Shown: one piece after another, positions 15,459 to 61,848 of the stretch
Layout of the letters: every line of letters starts with the position of its first letter
Numbering within the stretch: the stretch's first letter is position 1
Assembly: GCA_024226335.1 (NCBI GenBank)
Contig: JAAELY010000259.1
Location: 1-64,000 of the forward strand
Length of the DNA stretch: 64,000 nt
Direction of reading: 5' to 3'
Source of the DNA: a bacterium
GTDB lineage: Bacteria > Myxococcota_A > UBA9160 > SZUA-336
Translations under genes and position numbers: made by a program
The notes under the pieces: generated by a model
Database searches by the model: none
What the model saw: only the letters and a program-made list of their open reading frames with translations
What the model was told of the DNA's origin: nothing

Positions 15459-18400
15459 ATGGCTCGAATTCGTGACTTTTTGTCTGCCCTTCTCTTGGCG
15501 AGCATGGCAGCGTTGGTTTCAACTGGTGCACAGGCCAAGGACTTCTGGTTTTTCGAAACCGGGCAAGTTCGGCCGCTCGCGCTTTCGCCCGACGGCGACC
15601 GCCTGTTTGCCCTCAATACCCCGGACAATCGGCTGGAAATTTTCAGCATCGGGCCGGGTGGTCTGAGCTTCGAGTACTCCGTTCCCGTGGGCCTGGAGCC
15701 GATCTCCGTGGCCGCGCGCAGCAACGCCGAAGTCTGGGTCGTCAATCATCTTTCCGACAGCATCAGCATTGTGGACGTCAGCAGCGACCCGCCCAGCGTC
15801 ACGCGTACCTTGTTGGTCGGTGACGAACCGCGCGACATCGTTTTCGCAGGTACGCCTCCCGATCCGAATCAGCCCTTCCCGCGCGCGTTCATCTCGGCCG
15901 CCCATCGCGGGCAGGTTCATCCGGCGGATCCCAACGGCGAAAAGTACGGCGACTTCTTCACCCCGAGTGTGGGACGCGCGGATCTGTGGATTTTCGATGC
16001 CAACAGTCTTGGATCGGCGTTGGGCGGAACCCCGGAAACCATACTGACGCTGTTTGGGGATACTCCACGTGCTCTGGCCGCAACGCCGAGTGGTGACAAG
16101 GTCTACCTGAGCGTATTTCACTCGGGCAATCGCACGACCGCGATTCCGAATCGAATCCTACCGATCGAACCGGGCTCGATCGATATCGGTGCGATCGCAG
16201 CATTCAATGGCTCGACCTGGACCGCGCGTGGCGGGATCGATGTGAGTTCGTACATCAAACTGGAATTGCCCGACTACGATGTCTTCTCGATCGATGCCGA
16301 CGCAGTGACGCCGGTCGAACTCGACCGCTTCTCCGGCGTAGGAACAATCCTGTTTGACATGCTCGTCGATCCGAATACCGGCGTGTTGTACGTGAGCAAT
16401 ACTGAGGCGAACAACGCGCAGCGCTTCGAATCCGAGGTCAAGAGCAAGATTCACCAGGCACGAATCACATTGATCGACGATCCGAACGTGGAGACGCGCC
16501 ATCTGAACACGCACATCGACTACGAAGTCGTGCCTTCTCCTGCGGGCATCGCGGAGAAGAGTCTGGCAACCCCCATGGGCATGGCTATCTCGGGCGACAC
16601 CCTGTACGTGGCGGCCTTCGGATCGAGCAAGGTTGGCGTGTTTTCGACCAGTGAACTGATCGCAGATGGCTTCACTCCAGATCCGAACAATCAGATATCT
16701 GTGAGCGGCGGCGGACCTACGAGCGTCGTGGTCGACGAGATCAACGACCGACTGTATGTGCTGACGCGTTTCGACAATTCGATCTCGGTCATCGACAAGT
16801 CCGCCGAGAGCGAAATCGATCACATCGCTTTGCACAATCCCGAACCGGCGGATGTACTGGCGGGCCGGCCATTCCTCTACGACGCGATTGCGACCTCGAG
16901 CAATGGCGAAGCTTCGTGTTCGGCGTGCCACGTTTTTGGCGACCTCGACAGCCTGTCCTGGGACCTGGGCGATCCCAATGGCTCGATCATCCCCCAGAAC
17001 AATCTCTTTGAACTCGGCTTCGGTACGTCGGTCCATCCCCAGAAAGGGCCGATGACTACACAGACCTTCCGCGGGATGGCGAACCACGGTCCGATGCACT
17101 GGCGCGGTGACAAGACCGGCGCGGACGACCCCAATGTGGGTACGCAGTTCGACGAGGAAGCAGCGTTCAAGGCCTTCAACCCCGCCTTTGTCGGCTTGCT
17201 GGGACGATCGTCACAATTGAACGCGATCGAGATACAGGCTTTCGCCGACTACGCACTGCAGATCGTTTCCCCGCCGAACCCGATCGCCAATCTCGACAAT
17301 TCGCTGAGCGCGGCAGAAGCCCACGGCCTCGTGGTCTTCAACACGCCATTCACCGATCAGGCGTCGAAATCGTGCATCCAGTGTCACGGCCTCGATTCGA
17401 GCCAGGGCTTCTTTGGTACCAAGGGCTTCCTGTCGATCCTGCCGGGCGCCGAGCCTCAGGACTTCAAGATCCCGCAGTTGCGCAATCTCTATTCGAAAGT
17501 GGGCATGTTCGGCGGCGTGTCGAACTCACTTTTTCCGAGATTGGGCGATCCGAACCAACCGCAGATACGCGGCTTCGGTTACTCGCACGACGGCTCGATC
17601 GACAGCGTGCTCAGCTTCGTCAATACCTTCATCTTCCAGCTCCCCATCGATCCCAACGATCCCAACGGGATGCCGGGCGAGGTTTCGCGCCAGGACACCG
17701 CGCGCTTGCTGATGGCCTTCCCTTCCGAACTCGCTCCGATCGTCGGTCAGCAGATCACTTTGACCGCAGCCAATCAGGTCGCAGCGGGTGCGCGAATCGA
17801 TCTGATGATCGCGCGCGCTCTCGTGTCCTATCCGAGCCCTGAAGATCCCAACCAGGTGGAATGCGATATCGTTGTGAAGGGCTCGGTAGCGGGCGAGGAT
17901 CGAGGCTGGACCATGAATGCCGCGCAACTCTTCGTACCAGATCGCGCCAGCGAATCAGTGCTAAATGACGCGAGCTTGCGGGCCGTGGCGACGGGCGGTG
18001 GCGACCCGTTGACCTACACCTGTGTGCCACCGGGCTCGGGTGTGCGCATCGGTATCGATCGCGACCGGGACCTGCTGCTCGACGCGGATGAGAAGTACTT
18101 CTGGTACAGCGATCCGGGCGATCCCGACAGCGACGACGACACGTTGCTGGACTCCGCAGACAACTGCCCGAAGTTCGCCAACCTGGGGCAGGCCGATACC
18201 GGCGGCGTCGCCTCGCTGGCGGACCCCAATGGTGCATTGCCCGACGGTTTCGGCGACGCCTGTCAGTGCGGTGATACCAGCGACAACGGACGCGTCACCG
18301 ATCTGGATGTAACAGAGTTACGCGACCATCTGGCCTGGATCGGACCGGCACTGAGTTCGGGAGGCCTGGGCAAGTGCGATACGCTCGCACCGGCAGGTTC

Positions 18401-18491
18401 CTGTGACGTTGGGGACTGGGTCGTTCTGGCCCGTGAACTCGCGCAACTCGGACCGGGTATCGAGCACGTGTGCGCTCCTGTCGTCCCCTGA
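15459..18491 (+). CDS. Secreted beta-propeller/di-heme cytochrome c protein with dockerin-like tail
   Basis: 1010 aa from ATG 15459, which begins a clear signal peptide (MARIRDFLSALLLASMAALV, cut near ALVSTGAQA). The first ~450 residues are YVTN/YncE-like propeller blades (VRPLALSPDGDRLFALNT, NDRLYVLTRFDNSISVID). Then come two heme c sites, CSACH at residue 487 and CIQCH at 639, in a MauG/cytochrome c peroxidase-like region. Next is a thrombospondin-3-like calcium stretch (DRDRDLLLDADEK, DPDSDDDTLLDSADNCP). A Cys-containing dockerin-like module begins at residue 935 (CQCGD). DPN motifs recur about a dozen times. It is probably a periplasmic or surface oxidoreductase; the substrate is unknown. 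Confidence 0.82.
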   Translation: MARIRDFLSALLLASMAALVSTGAQAKDFWFFETGQVRPLALSPDGDRLFALNTPDNRLEIFSIGPGGLSFEYSVPVGLEPISVAARSNAEVWVVNHLSDSISIVDVSSDPPSVTRTLLVGDEPRDIVFAGTPPDPNQPFPRAFISAAHRGQVHPADPNGEKYGDFFTPSVGRADLWIFDANSLGSALGGTPETILTLFGDTPRALAATPSGDKVYLSVFHSGNRTTAIPNRILPIEPGSIDIGAIAAFNGSTWTARGGIDVSSYIKLELPDYDVFSIDADAVTPVELDRFSGVGTILFDMLVDPNTGVLYVSNTEANNAQRFESEVKSKIHQARITLIDDPNVETRHLNTHIDYEVVPSPAGIAEKSLATPMGMAISGDTLYVAAFGSSKVGVFSTSELIADGFTPDPNNQISVSGGGPTSVVVDEINDRLYVLTRFDNSISVIDKSAESEIDHIALHNPEPADVLAGRPFLYDAIATSSNGEASCSACHVFGDLDSLSWDLGDPNGSIIPQNNLFELGFGTSVHPQKGPMTTQTFRGMANHGPMHWRGDKTGADDPNVGTQFDEEAAFKAFNPAFVGLLGRSSQLNAIEIQAFADYALQIVSPPNPIANLDNSLSAAEAHGLVVFNTPFTDQASKSCIQCHGLDSSQGFFGTKGFLSILPGAEPQDFKIPQLRNLYSKVGMFGGVSNSLFPRLGDPNQPQIRGFGYSHDGSIDSVLSFVNTFIFQLPIDPNDPNGMPGEVSRQDTARLLMAFPSELAPIVGQQITLTAANQVAAGARIDLMIARALVSYPSPEDPNQVECDIVVKGSVAGEDRGWTMNAAQLFVPDRASESVLNDASLRAVATGGGDPLTYTCVPPGSGVRIGIDRDRDLLLDADEKYFWYSDPGDPDSDDDTLLDSADNCPKFANLGQADTGGVASLADPNGALPDGFGDACQCGDTSDNGRVTDLDVTELRDHLAWIGPALSSGGLGKCDTLAPAGSCDVGDWVVLARELAQLGPGIEHVCAPVVP

Positions 18492-18510: not shown

Positions 18511-18572
18511 CAACCGCCGGCGTGGGTCGTCCGATGCAGGGACAACGCCCTTCCGCGTCCAGGAGACACGAA

Positions 18573-18947
18573 TTGAAGTCCCTCCCCCTGATTCTCTTTG
18601 CGCTCGCCGCCACCGCTGCGCTGGTCTGGGAAAAGGGTGGCGTGCGCGAATGGTCGGACGAGAACGCGCCCCGGGCACAGCTGGCCGCACAGGCGGAACC
18701 CACGGCCGCCAAAGTCACCCTGTACACGATGGTCGGCTGCCCGTACTGCAGGGCGGCCGTGAGCTATCTGGACGACATCGGCCAGCCCTATGTGAACCGC
18801 GACGTTCAACAGGATCCCGACGCCTACGCGGAGTACATGCGAAAGACCGGTGGCAACCCGGGTGTTCCAGTGATCGATGTGAATGGCCAGATCATGCAGG
18901 GATGGGACTCCCGTCAATTCGAGTCGATGTTGGTTTCGAACCGCTAA
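18573..18947 (+). CDS. Membrane-anchored glutaredoxin-like thiol-disulfide protein
   Basis: 124 aa from TTG 18573 (CAGGAG 8 nt upstream). An N-terminal hydrophobic stretch (LKSLPLILFALAATAALVWE) works as an anchor or uncleaved signal, so the glutaredoxin domain probably faces the periplasm. The active site is MVGCPYCRAAVSYL (CPYC), with the cis-Pro in GNPGVPVIDVNG. The cis-Pro loop and the final GWD match glutaredoxins. Substrates are unknown; the neighbouring secreted cytochrome is a candidate partner for reduction or heme ligation. Confidence 0.85.
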   Translation: MKSLPLILFALAATAALVWEKGGVREWSDENAPRAQLAAQAEPTAAKVTLYTMVGCPYCRAAVSYLDDIGQPYVNRDVQQDPDAYAEYMRKTGGNPGVPVIDVNGQIMQGWDSRQFESMLVSNR

Positions 18948-19075
18948 AGCCCGCGAAATTTCGTAATACCCTTTATTATCAAATAGATAGTCACCGAGTT
19001 GCACTCTGCTAAGTGCTTGCGGGTCGCGTCTGTTGCCTGTTGGGTTTTCCCATCGCATCGCCGATAGGCTCCAAC

Positions 19076-20947
19076 ATGACGGACGAATGCGACGTTGCCG
19101 CAGATCTGCACAACCCTGAGCGCAGTAGCGCCAGTGAAATGCGCCCCCCACTCACGCTCTCCGAACTCCTGGAGATGTTGACCCGGCGCGAACTGCTCAC
19201 CGCCCAGCAGGCCAAGGATGTGGAATCTCGCTCCACCACCTTGCACAGCCGAGTGCTCAAGGAGCGGGTCGGCTCGGTACGTTCGGCGGCCGCAGCACGA
19301 TACGAGGTATCCCCAGCCGAGACCGTTGCGGCCGCGGCCTTTCCTCATGCGAGCAAAGCGCATCGACGACTCGACGAGGATGCGATTGCGGAGGCGATCG
19401 CGTCCGAGAACGATCTGCCCTATCTGAAGATCGACCCGTTGCGGCTAGACAACGATCTGATCACCAAGACGTTCTCCCGACCTTTCGTGCGCCGTCACGT
19501 GGTCATCCCGTTGAGCGACGAAGGCGAGAGCATGCGCCTCGCCGTCTCCGATCCCTACGATTCGACGCTGCGCCAGACGATGCAGGACCTGGTTCACAAG
19601 CGGGTGGAATTCACGATCGCGTCCAAACGCGACATCCTGGGCGTGGCCGACCGCGTCTTCGGCTTCCGCACCAGCGTCAAGGCCGCGGTCGACGAGCTTG
19701 GCGACCAGAATTCGAACAGTGCATTGGCCGAACTGGTAGAGCTTCGATCGAACGAAGAACTGGCCACGAATAGCGATGCCCATGTGATTGCGGCCGTCGA
19801 CTTCCTGCTGAACTACGCCTTCGAGCAGCGCGCATCCGATATCCACCTGGAGCCGCGCGCCGGCGATTGCGTCGTTCGCTTCCGGATCGACGGCATCCTG
19901 CACGACATCGAGGCTCTGCCGTCCTCAGTCCATGCTGCGATCGTATCGCGCATCAAGGTCATGGCTCGTATGGACATCGCCGAGCGCCGTCGCCCCCAGG
20001 ACGGTCGTATCAAGACCGCTCGCGGCGACAAGGAAGTCGAACTGCGCGTTTCGAGTCTGTTCAGCGCCTTCGGTGAGAAAGTCGTGATTCGAGTACTCGA
20101 TCCGGGCATCCTGATGTCGGATCTGCAGGAACTCGGTTTCAATTCACTCGAGCGCGAACAATACGAGCGCTGGATCACGGCGCCCAATGGATTGATCCTG
20201 GTTACCGGCCCCACCGGCTCGGGCAAGACGACTTCGTTGTACTCGACACTGCGCTACCTGGCGGGCCCTGAGATCAATATCACCACGGTCGAGGATCCGA
20301 TCGAGATGATCGATCCGCGCTTCGTGCAGGTGCAGGTGCAGCCACAGATCGACGTGACCTTCGCGAACGCGCTGCGTTCGATCCTACGTCAGGATCCGGA
20401 CATCATCATGGTCGGTGAGATCCGTGATCCAGAGACCGCGCAGATGGCAGTGCAGGCCGCACTCACGGGACACCTGGTCTTTTCGACTGTGCATACGCGT
20501 GATGCTGCCGGAGCTATCACACGCCTGATCGAACTCAACGTCGAGCGCTTCCTGCTGTCCAGCGTGCTGCGCGGCGTGCTCGCCCAGCGACTCCTGCGCA
20601 AGATCTGTCCGCATTGCGCAGTCGACGGTTACCTGACGCCCGAGCAGGTGGCTGCGCTCGGTCTCAAGGTGCCCGTCGAGCGACGAGAGCGTCTGGGCGT
20701 GCGCTGGGGAGAGGGCTGCGTGGATTGCCGGCACACGGGCTTGTACGGAAGAGCGGGTGTGTTCGAGATGCTCGACGTCGGACGGCGTCTGCGCGAGATC
20801 ATCAAGAAGGGCGGAGACGCCAATGAACTCGCCCATGCCGCGCGGGTCGAAGGTATGGAAATGCTGCGCGAAAGTGCTCTTCGGCGCCTGGCCGACGGCA
20901 TGACCACATTTGAAGAGGTGGTCCGCCTGACTGCCGAGATAGATTGA
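19076..20947 (+). CDS. Orphan GspE/PilB-type secretion ATPase
   Basis: 623 aa from ATG 19076; TAGGCT lies 5-8 nt upstream with no Shine-Dalgarno. The N-terminal domain (about residues 20-230) resembles the T2SSE/MshEN region but lacks the paired RLG c-di-GMP motif seen in MshE. ATPase core: Walker A GPTGSGKTTS near residue 379, Asp box EDPIEM, Walker B IIMVGEIRDPETAQ and His box LTGHLVFSTVHTRD. A zinc site has CPHC and CVDC. It should power a pilus or type II secretion machine, but no GspF, pilin or secretin gene adjoins it. A Ycf46-type AAA ATPase follows after 16 bp. Confidence 0.88.
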   Translation: MTDECDVAADLHNPERSSASEMRPPLTLSELLEMLTRRELLTAQQAKDVESRSTTLHSRVLKERVGSVRSAAAARYEVSPAETVAAAAFPHASKAHRRLDEDAIAEAIASENDLPYLKIDPLRLDNDLITKTFSRPFVRRHVVIPLSDEGESMRLAVSDPYDSTLRQTMQDLVHKRVEFTIASKRDILGVADRVFGFRTSVKAAVDELGDQNSNSALAELVELRSNEELATNSDAHVIAAVDFLLNYAFEQRASDIHLEPRAGDCVVRFRIDGILHDIEALPSSVHAAIVSRIKVMARMDIAERRRPQDGRIKTARGDKEVELRVSSLFSAFGEKVVIRVLDPGILMSDLQELGFNSLEREQYERWITAPNGLILVTGPTGSGKTTSLYSTLRYLAGPEINITTVEDPIEMIDPRFVQVQVQPQIDVTFANALRSILRQDPDIIMVGEIRDPETAQMAVQAALTGHLVFSTVHTRDAAGAITRLIELNVERFLLSSVLRGVLAQRLLRKICPHCAVDGYLTPEQVAALGLKVPVERRERLGVRWGEGCVDCRHTGLYGRAGVFEMLDVGRRLREIIKKGGDANELAHAARVEGMEMLRESALRRLADGMTTFEEVVRLTAEID

Positions 20948-58122: not shown

Positions 58123-58199
58123 TGGCGCGCCCAGCACGACTCGAACGTGCGACCTTCAGGTCCGCAACCTGACGCTCTATCCATCTGAGCTATGGGCGC
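58123..58199 (-). tRNA. tRNA-Arg (anticodon GCG)
   Basis: 77-nt cloverleaf with encoded CCA. Acceptor GCGCCCA pairs with TGGGCGC, discriminator G. Anticodon stem TCAGG/CCTGA encloses the loop TTGCGGA, giving anticodon GCG (codons CGC, CGU). T-arm GCACG-TTCGAGT-CGTGC. Most bacteria use ACG (inosine) for this codon box. Confidence 0.95.
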
Positions 58200-58284
58200 G
58201 CGAGAAGAAATCCCGTCGATCCGGAAGCTGCTTGGTCCGTATGACGAAAACACCCTTTCCGACGGGGCGGCCAGGGTAGCAAAA

Positions 58285-58374
58285 TGGCGGAGAGAGTGGG
58301 ATTCGAACCCACGGTACGCGTAAACGCACACACGGTTTCCAACCGTGCGCCTTCAGCCACTCGGCCATCTCTCC
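58285..58374 (-). tRNA. tRNA-Ser (anticodon GGA)
   Basis: 90-nt class II tRNA with long variable arm and encoded CCA. Acceptor GGAGAGA pairs with the TCTCTCC side. Anticodon loop TTGGAAA gives GGA, reading UCC and UCU. T-loop TTCGAAT. It lies between tRNA-Ser GCT and tRNA-Arg on the same strand. Confidence 0.96.
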
Positions 58375-58432
58375 AACTCGTTACGAACGATGCCGATCCG
58401 GCCCAGTCCAGTAAGACCCCCGGTCATCGCAC

Positions 58433-58524
<92 letters not shown>

Positions 58525-58589: not shown

Positions 58590-60676
<2,087 letters not shown>

Positions 60677-60747: not shown

Positions 60748-60795
60748 CTTCCGATAAAGCCCACAGGTCACGGGCGATTACCCAGGAGGTTGCAC

Positions 60796-61848
60796 ATGTC
60801 GAAGGCACAGGTCGTGCCCCAGGTCCGAGTCTACCAGCGGGGACACAAATGGTGGTACGACATTCGCCTGGAGGGTCGCCGGATTCGACGGCCCGGGGGT
60901 CGGAGTCGGAACGAGGCGCAAGCGTCGGGGGCACAGTTTCTGGCATCCGGGGCACAGCGCTCCCCAGCCGGGACCCTTGGCGCCATCCTCGATTCGTGGG
61001 TTGCCTATCAGAGCATCTACGGGCGCAAAGAGAGGACCGTGAAGACCACAACCAATTGTTGTGAGCGGCTGAAGGTCCATTTTGGAGCCGATCGGCAGCT
61101 CATCGAGATAGATACGGATGCCCTCGCCGGTTTCGTGCGCTGGCGGCAGTCCGGTGAGCGGAAGGTCGGCGCGTACGCGATCAATCGCGATCTCGCCACG
61201 ATTCGCGCCGCCTGGAGACACGCCCATGAGGACGGGAAGGCGCCGGAGCCCCCGCGATTCAGGTTGCTGACGACGGACGAACCCAACCCGAAACCGGTCA
61301 TGCGCGAGGAGTTCGCCCTGCTGATGCTGCATGCCGACAGACGGTTGAAGGCAATTTTCGCTCTGGCCGGTGTCCTAGGTCTCCGGAACTCCGAGATCCG
61401 GCGTCTGAAATGGCGGGACGTCGACCTGATCAACCGACGTCTTCGCGTCGACATGCTCCATTCGAAAAATCGCAGCGAGCGGACGCTACCAATCCCAGGT
61501 GCAGTCTTGGAGATCCTCCAGGAACACCGCGCAGATCGTTCGGAGTCCGGCCCGTCGGATCTGATCTTTGTCAACCGATTCGGAAGGATGTACACGGACT
61601 ACGGCCTCGCAAAGGTGGCGCGTCACGTCTGGGAGCAGACGGGTCTATTGGAGGATCGCCCGGGTACAAAGGTGCTTCACGATCTACGTGCGACGGCAGC
61701 TACCTTCATGGTCGAGGCCGGAGCATCGACCGAGACACTGCGTTCCAACCTCGGCTGGAAGAGCCGCGACGTAGTAGAGCGTTATGTCAAGGCGTTTGAG
61801 CAGAGCCGGAGCAAGGCGGTTGAGGCCGTCGCCGACGCACTTCTGTAG
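60796..61848 (+). CDS. int: Tyrosine-family site-specific integrase
   Basis: 350 aa from ATG 60796, with AGGAGG 6 nt upstream. An N-terminal AP2-like/arm-binding part (VYQRGHKWWYDIRLEGRRIR) is followed by a SAM-like core-binding domain (ESGERKVGAYAINRDLATIR region). The catalytic domain has Arg in LGLRNSEIRRLKW near residue 197, HDLRATAATFMVEAG near 295 and the Tyr in VVERYVKAFEQS near 330. It probably integrates an element at or near the adjacent tRNA-Ser gene. The gene appears intact. Confidence 0.93.
   Translation: MSKAQVVPQVRVYQRGHKWWYDIRLEGRRIRRPGGRSRNEAQASGAQFLASGAQRSPAGTLGAILDSWVAYQSIYGRKERTVKTTTNCCERLKVHFGADRQLIEIDTDALAGFVRWRQSGERKVGAYAINRDLATIRAAWRHAHEDGKAPEPPRFRLLTTDEPNPKPVMREEFALLMLHADRRLKAIFALAGVLGLRNSEIRRLKWRDVDLINRRLRVDMLHSKNRSERTLPIPGAVLEILQEHRADRSESGPSDLIFVNRFGRMYTDYGLAKVARHVWEQTGLLEDRPGTKVLHDLRATAATFMVEAGASTETLRSNLGWKSRDVVERYVKAFEQSRSKAVEAVADALL

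Follow-up and report, generated by a model that had tools for sequence, protein, structure and literature searches.

A dockerin-type module with predicted disulfides shared by unrelated exoproteins of a Myxococcota-like bacterium

Introduction

Two genes within a 64,000-nucleotide stretch of bacterial DNA (the window), one for a cytochrome and one for a subtilisin, encode otherwise unrelated proteins with similar tails, raising the question of what this tail is and what it does for its carriers. A sequence-only reading had described it as dockerin-like, preceded by an acidic stretch resembling thrombospondin type 3 (TSP3) repeats, and had proposed a common sorting or docking module. Dockerins with no matching cohesin are a long-standing puzzle.

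Results

The two tails are homologous and of probable dockerin type

In a full-length alignment, the cytochrome (15459–18491) and the subtilisin (58590–60584) are homologous over their last ~105 residues, where the sequence-only reading had placed the tails and along their whole length. A tblastn-type search of the 5.75-Mb genome (556 contigs) with the subtilisin tail recovered the cytochrome tail at E = 2.8e-15, among many further matches, so the likeness is not due to chance. The motifs described for it (CPxxxNxGQxDxGG, GDACQCGD, a calcium loop, C...C, DWVV..R.L and GPGI..VC.P..P) are all present; the segment C...C...DWVV..R.L, which had been taken as a motif of its own, is instead a degenerate second dockerin repeat. 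The features of the two genes are as follows.

15459..18491, + strand: carrier 1, an exported YVTN beta-propeller / di-haem cytochrome (CSACH, CIQCH) with a C-terminal module (ORF; signal peptide MARIRDFLSALLLASMAALVSTGAQA)
18120..18239, + strand: TSP3-like acidic linker, DPDSDDD...DNCP... (weak TSP_3 match)
18165–18167, + strand: codon of the TSP3 Cys, predicted partner of the first Cys of the CQC motif (co-occurrence of DxC and CQC Cys across modules)
18240..18488, + strand: dockerin-type module with predicted Cys staple (profile E = 4.2e-31, from profile A2, which contains that very sequence; E = 2.8e-15 with the subtilisin tail alone)
18273..18308, + strand: calcium loop 1, D-T-S-D-N-G-R-V-T-D-L-D (ligand statistics; Dockerin_1 match at 18270–18353)
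18375..18404, + strand: degenerate, Cys-bracketed loop 2, C-DTLAPAGS-C, ligands 3 and 5 lost (Cys spacing, ligand statistics)
58590..60584, − strand: carrier 2, a subtilisin-family protease with a C-terminal module (Peptidase_S8, E = 2.4e-23)
58848..58943, − strand: TSP3-like linker NSDGDPLLDAWDNCP... (weak TSP_3 match; alignment)
58593..58847, − strand: dockerin-type module with predicted Cys staple (profile E = 5.5e-28, from a profile containing that very sequence; AF2 model and Foldseek)
58779..58814, − strand: calcium loop 1, D-A-S-G-D-G-Q-V-D-L-S-D (partial Dockerin_1 match, below cut-off)
58677..58718, − strand: degenerate, Cys-bracketed loop 2, C-NVVGASDEGVSD-C (Cys spacing, ligand statistics)

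A profile of the module matched solved dockerins over both repeats (8x39, E = 9e-10; 4fl4, E = 3.4e-6). The AF2 model of the subtilisin tail shows two loops, each followed by a helix, with a core pLDDT of 80–95, and in a Foldseek search of the PDB its ranks 1–17 were all dockerins (probability up to 0.98, TMt up to 0.76, best E 0.09). The cytochrome-tail model is weaker, and its Foldseek list, led by dockerins, also includes COMP type 3 repeats. Structure prediction, which had been suggested as the check for a true dockerin, gave a divided answer: dockerins head the list, but the models are of moderate confidence (pLDDT 74 and 66) and every Foldseek E-value is 0.05 or higher. Two tandem F-hand (loop-helix) repeats are present, the internal repeat being plain in locus L091. 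Based on the profile matches and predicted structures, we assign the shared tail to a dockerin-type domain of two F-hand repeats, here with predicted disulfides, in agreement with its earlier description as dockerin-like.

The PF00404 gathering score of 22.9 bits was not reached by either tail (subtilisin 14.3 bits; cytochrome unlisted by hmmscan, 12.5 bits at the DNA level), because the second repeat is degenerate. Of the ligands that define type I dockerins, at positions 1, 3, 5 and 12 of both loops, loop 1 carries the full set and loop 2 of the window-type modules does not. By loop 2 and by score, the module thus falls outside the Pfam dockerin family, strictly taken, and with no cohesin found it does not qualify as part of a cohesin-dockerin system. 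For TSP_3 (PF02412), scores in the window were 9.8 and 13.3 bits against a cut-off of 25; the motif DxDxDG...DNCP is present, and the cut-off is exceeded in L103 and L107.

The module is carried by many, mostly exported proteins

A profile search of the window genome detected 15 modules at E <= 2e-3 on about 14 mostly exported, mostly unrelated proteins, which excludes a tail confined to the two window proteins; the profile had 13 rows, and the 13 modules at E <= 4e-17 are the rows from which it was built. Carriers with known families are two YVTN-propeller cytochromes, the subtilisin, a reprolysin-like metalloprotease, a LamG lectin, a DUF7452 protein, a DUF1800 protein and an RHS/SpvB/TcB-like protein, alongside several without a known family. 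Of 13 carriers, 10 gave an export signal in a simple signal-peptide scan; the other three are the second cytochrome, a protein cut by the contig end and the subtilisin, which has a visible hydrophobic start and no standard start codon. Together with 88–95 modules in OFTM108, a genome of the same family, these carriers make up the large set of exoproteins that the sequence-only reading had anticipated. Modules in the window genome are ~32–52% identical to the reference tail.

The module does not always end its carrier: in the window genome it is C-terminal in 7 of 13 cases, N-terminal in 2 and internal in 4. Across all genomes sampled, 87 of 111 modules (~78%) lie <=25 residues from the frame end, while copies directly behind the signal peptide (L104, L119, L133, L144), internal copies and two modules on one protein were also seen, and one carrier (L105) is a likely lipoprotein. 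The module occurs in 21 of 40 relatives and, across the phylum, in 27 of 284 genomes, the 27 all belonging to the same class; the named loci come from metagenome-assembled genomes labelled as Myxococcota, Deltaproteobacteria and, for a few, Gammaproteobacteria. One internal copy lies in an RHS/YD-repeat protein of 2356 residues with SpvB and TcB-middle domains (L102, 4277–11347). The cytochrome match in genome G009 (L118) contains one in-frame TGA, and some copies may be decaying or mis-assembled.

Conserved cysteines predict three disulfides

The module has the cysteine pattern C(x)C-GD ... C ... C ... C, giving six Cys when the upstream TSP3 Cys is counted. All 84 modules compared follow one rule: the CxC motif has its first Cys if and only if a D-x-C occurs in the TSP3 segment upstream (72 with both, 12 with neither). 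In an enlarged set the association held in 108 of 110; of the two that departed from it, one has its D-x-C match ahead of a signal peptide and the other is a truncated or broken module. Orthologues of the window cytochrome in relatives (L118, with two copies, and L125) have lost both the TSP3 Cys segment and the first CQC Cys, CQC being changed to NQC, QQC or SQC (DANQCGD, DQQQCGD, DASQCGD). Since the two cysteines occur together and are lost together, the covariation argues that the TSP3 Cys and the first CQC Cys very probably form a disulfide linking the TSP3 segment to the dockerin.

The remaining four module cysteines are invariant or nearly so. In known dockerins the two ends are joined by a clasp (PMC4728124, PMC5934362), and, by analogy, the last Cys likely pairs with the second CQC Cys as an end-to-end clasp disulfide. 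The third predicted pair comprises the two Cys flanking loop 2, which would act as a staple. Loop 1 carries D, N or E at positions 1, 5 and 12 in 95–99% of modules. In loop 2, modules with a Cys spacing of 9 (the window type) have D, N or E at positions 1, 3 and 5 in only 23%, 3% and 17%, compared with 88%, 56% and 62% for a spacing of 8 (CDVNGDGxCNxxD); ligand positions 3 and 5 are gone in both window modules. Because the Cys pair occurs with both states of loop 2, the staple likely arose first and calcium was lost later.

A module-rich relative holds two constrained subtypes

In OFTM108, one profile detected 95 modules and another 88, belonging to two subtypes: the window-like type i, and a type ii (CECGDQ...NVxDILGxNAKIFG...CxRYP) that keeps both calcium loops and nearly always ends C-x-R-Y/H-P in this genome. 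Uniform type-ii modules with a C-terminal CxRYP made up 36 of 50 sampled (L176, L180, L183 and others), corresponding to perhaps 70–80 genome-wide. In the L180 2863 frame the module is broken after helix 2, which may reflect decay or mis-assembly.

Modules from 37 OFTM108 frames, nearly all type ii, have a median identity of 70%, while their fourfold sites are saturated (0.463 observed vs 0.439 expected). The OFTM108 modules are therefore old and held by selection; recent duplication as the cause of their uniformity was rejected, since silent sites are saturated.

Helix position 17/18 is nearly fixed, as R in type i (92%/89%) and as N17 in type ii (94%/94%), whereas its exposed helix neighbours vary in type i (entropy about 3 bits). 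Lys or Arg is the usual dockerin residue there, and the fixed residue might alternatively serve an internal salt bridge. The position aligns with Lys18/Arg19 of the Clostridium thermocellum dockerin, which contact cohesin (PMC4728124). We read this conservation pattern as the mark of a predicted binding face.

No cohesin is detected in module-bearing genomes of the family

The receptor expected to co-occur with the module was not found: neither PF00963 nor a class-specific cohesin profile identified a cohesin in the window genome or in module-rich relatives. PF00963 gave 0 candidates in the window genome and 0 matches at E <= 0.1 in all same-family genomes, about half of which are > 90% complete. 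The class-specific profile, built from four class-level cohesin-domain proteins, gave 0 matches in G000, G005, G007, G009 and G011, and only one at E 0.27 in OFTM108 (G010). In other families, with L150–L153 excluded, PF00963 matches included one cohesin-TSP3-dockerin protein as well as lone domains that carry PEP-CTERM-like tails. In a class relative (L155/L193; G034 contig C79, about 91823–92904), a cohesin-TSP3-dockerin-like protein adjoins a frame of 2935 aa that holds another cohesin-like match, a pair resembling the proposed planctosome adaptor and scaffold.

Discussion

Our data suggest, with an even chance of being right, that the tail is a position-tolerant docking module for a common extracellular partner. 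The exoproteins of this uncultured Myxococcota-like lineage would carry a dockerin-type domain behind a TSP3 calcium repeat (some carriers without TSP3), held by one disulfide from the TSP3 Cys to the first CQC Cys, a second from the second CQC Cys to the last Cys as a covalent version of the dockerin 'clasp', and a third across loop 2 as a staple in place of the second calcium. Such a protease-resistant module could bring unrelated exoproteins (protease, cytochrome, lectin, hydrolases) to one partner, docking through the same helix face as classical dockerins, with a partner that would not be a recognisable cohesin. Docking is favoured because the OFTM108 modules remain ~70% identical on different carriers although their silent sites are saturated, and because the exposed position 17/18 hardly varies within either subtype but differs between them. 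Of the sorting or docking role first proposed, docking thus stands as the best guess from the conservation pattern, as a prediction, and sorting does not. A fuller version, in which each cell would have tens of exoproteins with stapled dockerins, divided within one genome between two subtypes whose recognition residues differ, and these would bind a non-cohesin surface receptor in uncultured Myxococcota-like bacteria, is tentative and rather doubtful.

Several observations count against docking. Cohesin is missing from module-bearing same-family genomes; type-i modules vary at loop positions 10/11, where the specificity of type I dockerins is set; the likely lipoprotein L105 needs no further anchor; and the module can be internal, even in an RHS protein. 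Many of the same observations would suit an autonomous structural cap, in which TSP3 and the stapled dockerin make up a rigid end-piece or spacer, stabilised by calcium and disulfides, that guards against proteolysis and has no dedicated partner. This reading, to which we attach a substantial probability short of even, accommodates the absence of cohesin in the family, placement at N-termini, internally and at C-termini, carriers such as the likely lipoprotein and the RHS protein, three predicted disulfides that suit extracellular stability, and the low identity of window-genome modules to the reference tail (about 32–52%). It gives no reason for a single exposed helix residue to be fixed, and to differ between two subtypes within one genome, or for ~70% identity to persist over 37 OFTM108 frames with saturated silent sites; a dedicated partner is the better bet than none.

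A cellulosome-like cohesin-dockerin system, its scaffoldin missed through assembly gaps or divergence, would fit the true dockerin homology, the strong divergence of cohesins and the cohesin-domain proteins of class relatives outside the family, several with PEP-CTERM-like tails. We consider it improbable given zero cohesin matches at E <= 0.1 in all same-family genomes, about half > 90% complete, and carriers that are proteases, cytochromes and lectins rather than glycoside hydrolases. The position of 87 of 111 modules <=25 residues from the frame end, and the nearly constant C-x-R-Y/H-P ending of type ii in OFTM108, could point to a C-terminal signal for sorting or secretion that a dedicated transporter or sortase recognises, as for T9SS CTDs or MYXO-CTERM. 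Against such a tag, copies occur internally, twice on one protein and directly behind signal peptides, and one carrier is a likely lipoprotein; the module also has no hydrophobic tail or sortase-like motif, making a sorting signal very improbable. MYXO-CTERM was rejected as a real sorting route, TIGR03901 matches being few, weak and at other loci, with none on modules.

Among known systems, type I dockerins (PF00404; C. thermocellum 4fl4, 1ohz) share with the module the duplicated loop-helix F-hand, loop 1 ligands 1/5/12, a basic residue at helix 17/18 and domain ends lying close together. Unlike them, the module has six conserved Cys, a window-type loop 2 that is Cys-bracketed and without ligands, broken two-fold symmetry, TSP3 in front, no cohesin and scores below the Pfam cut-off. 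Its best PDB sequence match is the double-dockerin of a C. thermocellum serine protease (Clo1313_0689, PDB 8x39/8x3a), which, like the subtilisin's module, sits on a protease, a non-glycosidase, and has been proposed to anchor it at the cell surface (PMC12484212); unlike the module, it lives with the cohesin ScaD, has no conserved Cys in the aligned part and consists of two tandem dockerins. The putative 'planctosome' of freshwater Planctomycetes, put forward as a hypothesis only, likewise has peptidases bearing non-cellulosomal dockerins, and TSP3 repeats as part of the complex proposed, but there a cohesin is present and co-encoded, and no description of a Cys-stapled module was found there (PMC6461901). 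The clasp of the Ruminococcus flavefaciens ScaA dockerin, as summarised from Slutzki 2013 in PMC4728124 and PMC5934362, also joins the N- and C-terminal ends, by an intramolecular stacking contact rather than a predicted disulfide. Thrombospondin type 3 repeats proper (PF02412; COMP signature domain 3fby) share the DxDxDG...DNCP linker, with its calcium and Cys ladder, whereas the module's TSP3 is a short piece whose Cys is apparently tied to the dockerin. In the open literature we found no account of a dockerin stapled by Cys or linked to TSP3.

With up to ~90 strongly constrained modules per genome, in two subtypes differing at the classical contact position, this lineage turns what orphan dockerins bind into a directly testable question, and the type-ii carriers of OFTM108 offer a rich set for receptor hunting. 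If true, the covalent clasp and the replacement of one calcium site by a disulfide would show a way in which highly stable docking tags for the extracellular space can arise naturally.

Genomic surroundings of the two genes

The domains of the cytochrome include a TIGR02276 beta-propeller repeat (E = 9.7e-10) and a weak CCP_MauG match. A glutaredoxin-like protein (CPYC), exported or membrane-anchored, begins 30 bases past the gene (18522–18947) and could have a role in the haem or disulfide chemistry of its Cys-rich neighbour. Directly downstream lie a MshEN-T2SSE type II/IV secretion ATPase (19013–20947), possibly linked to export or a pilus, and then an AAA+ ATPase.

The subtilisin frame runs into a tRNA-Ser(tga) gene (from 60586 to 60676/60695), and since no ATG, GTG or TTG occurs between this tRNA and the signal-peptide region, the start codon is uncertain; a CTG at about 60578, or a fusion, is possible. 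Across the tRNA-Ser from the subtilisin lies a phage-type integrase ORF, identified by eye (60790–61848), and the region may be an integration site. Three further tRNAs are located at 58123–58524.
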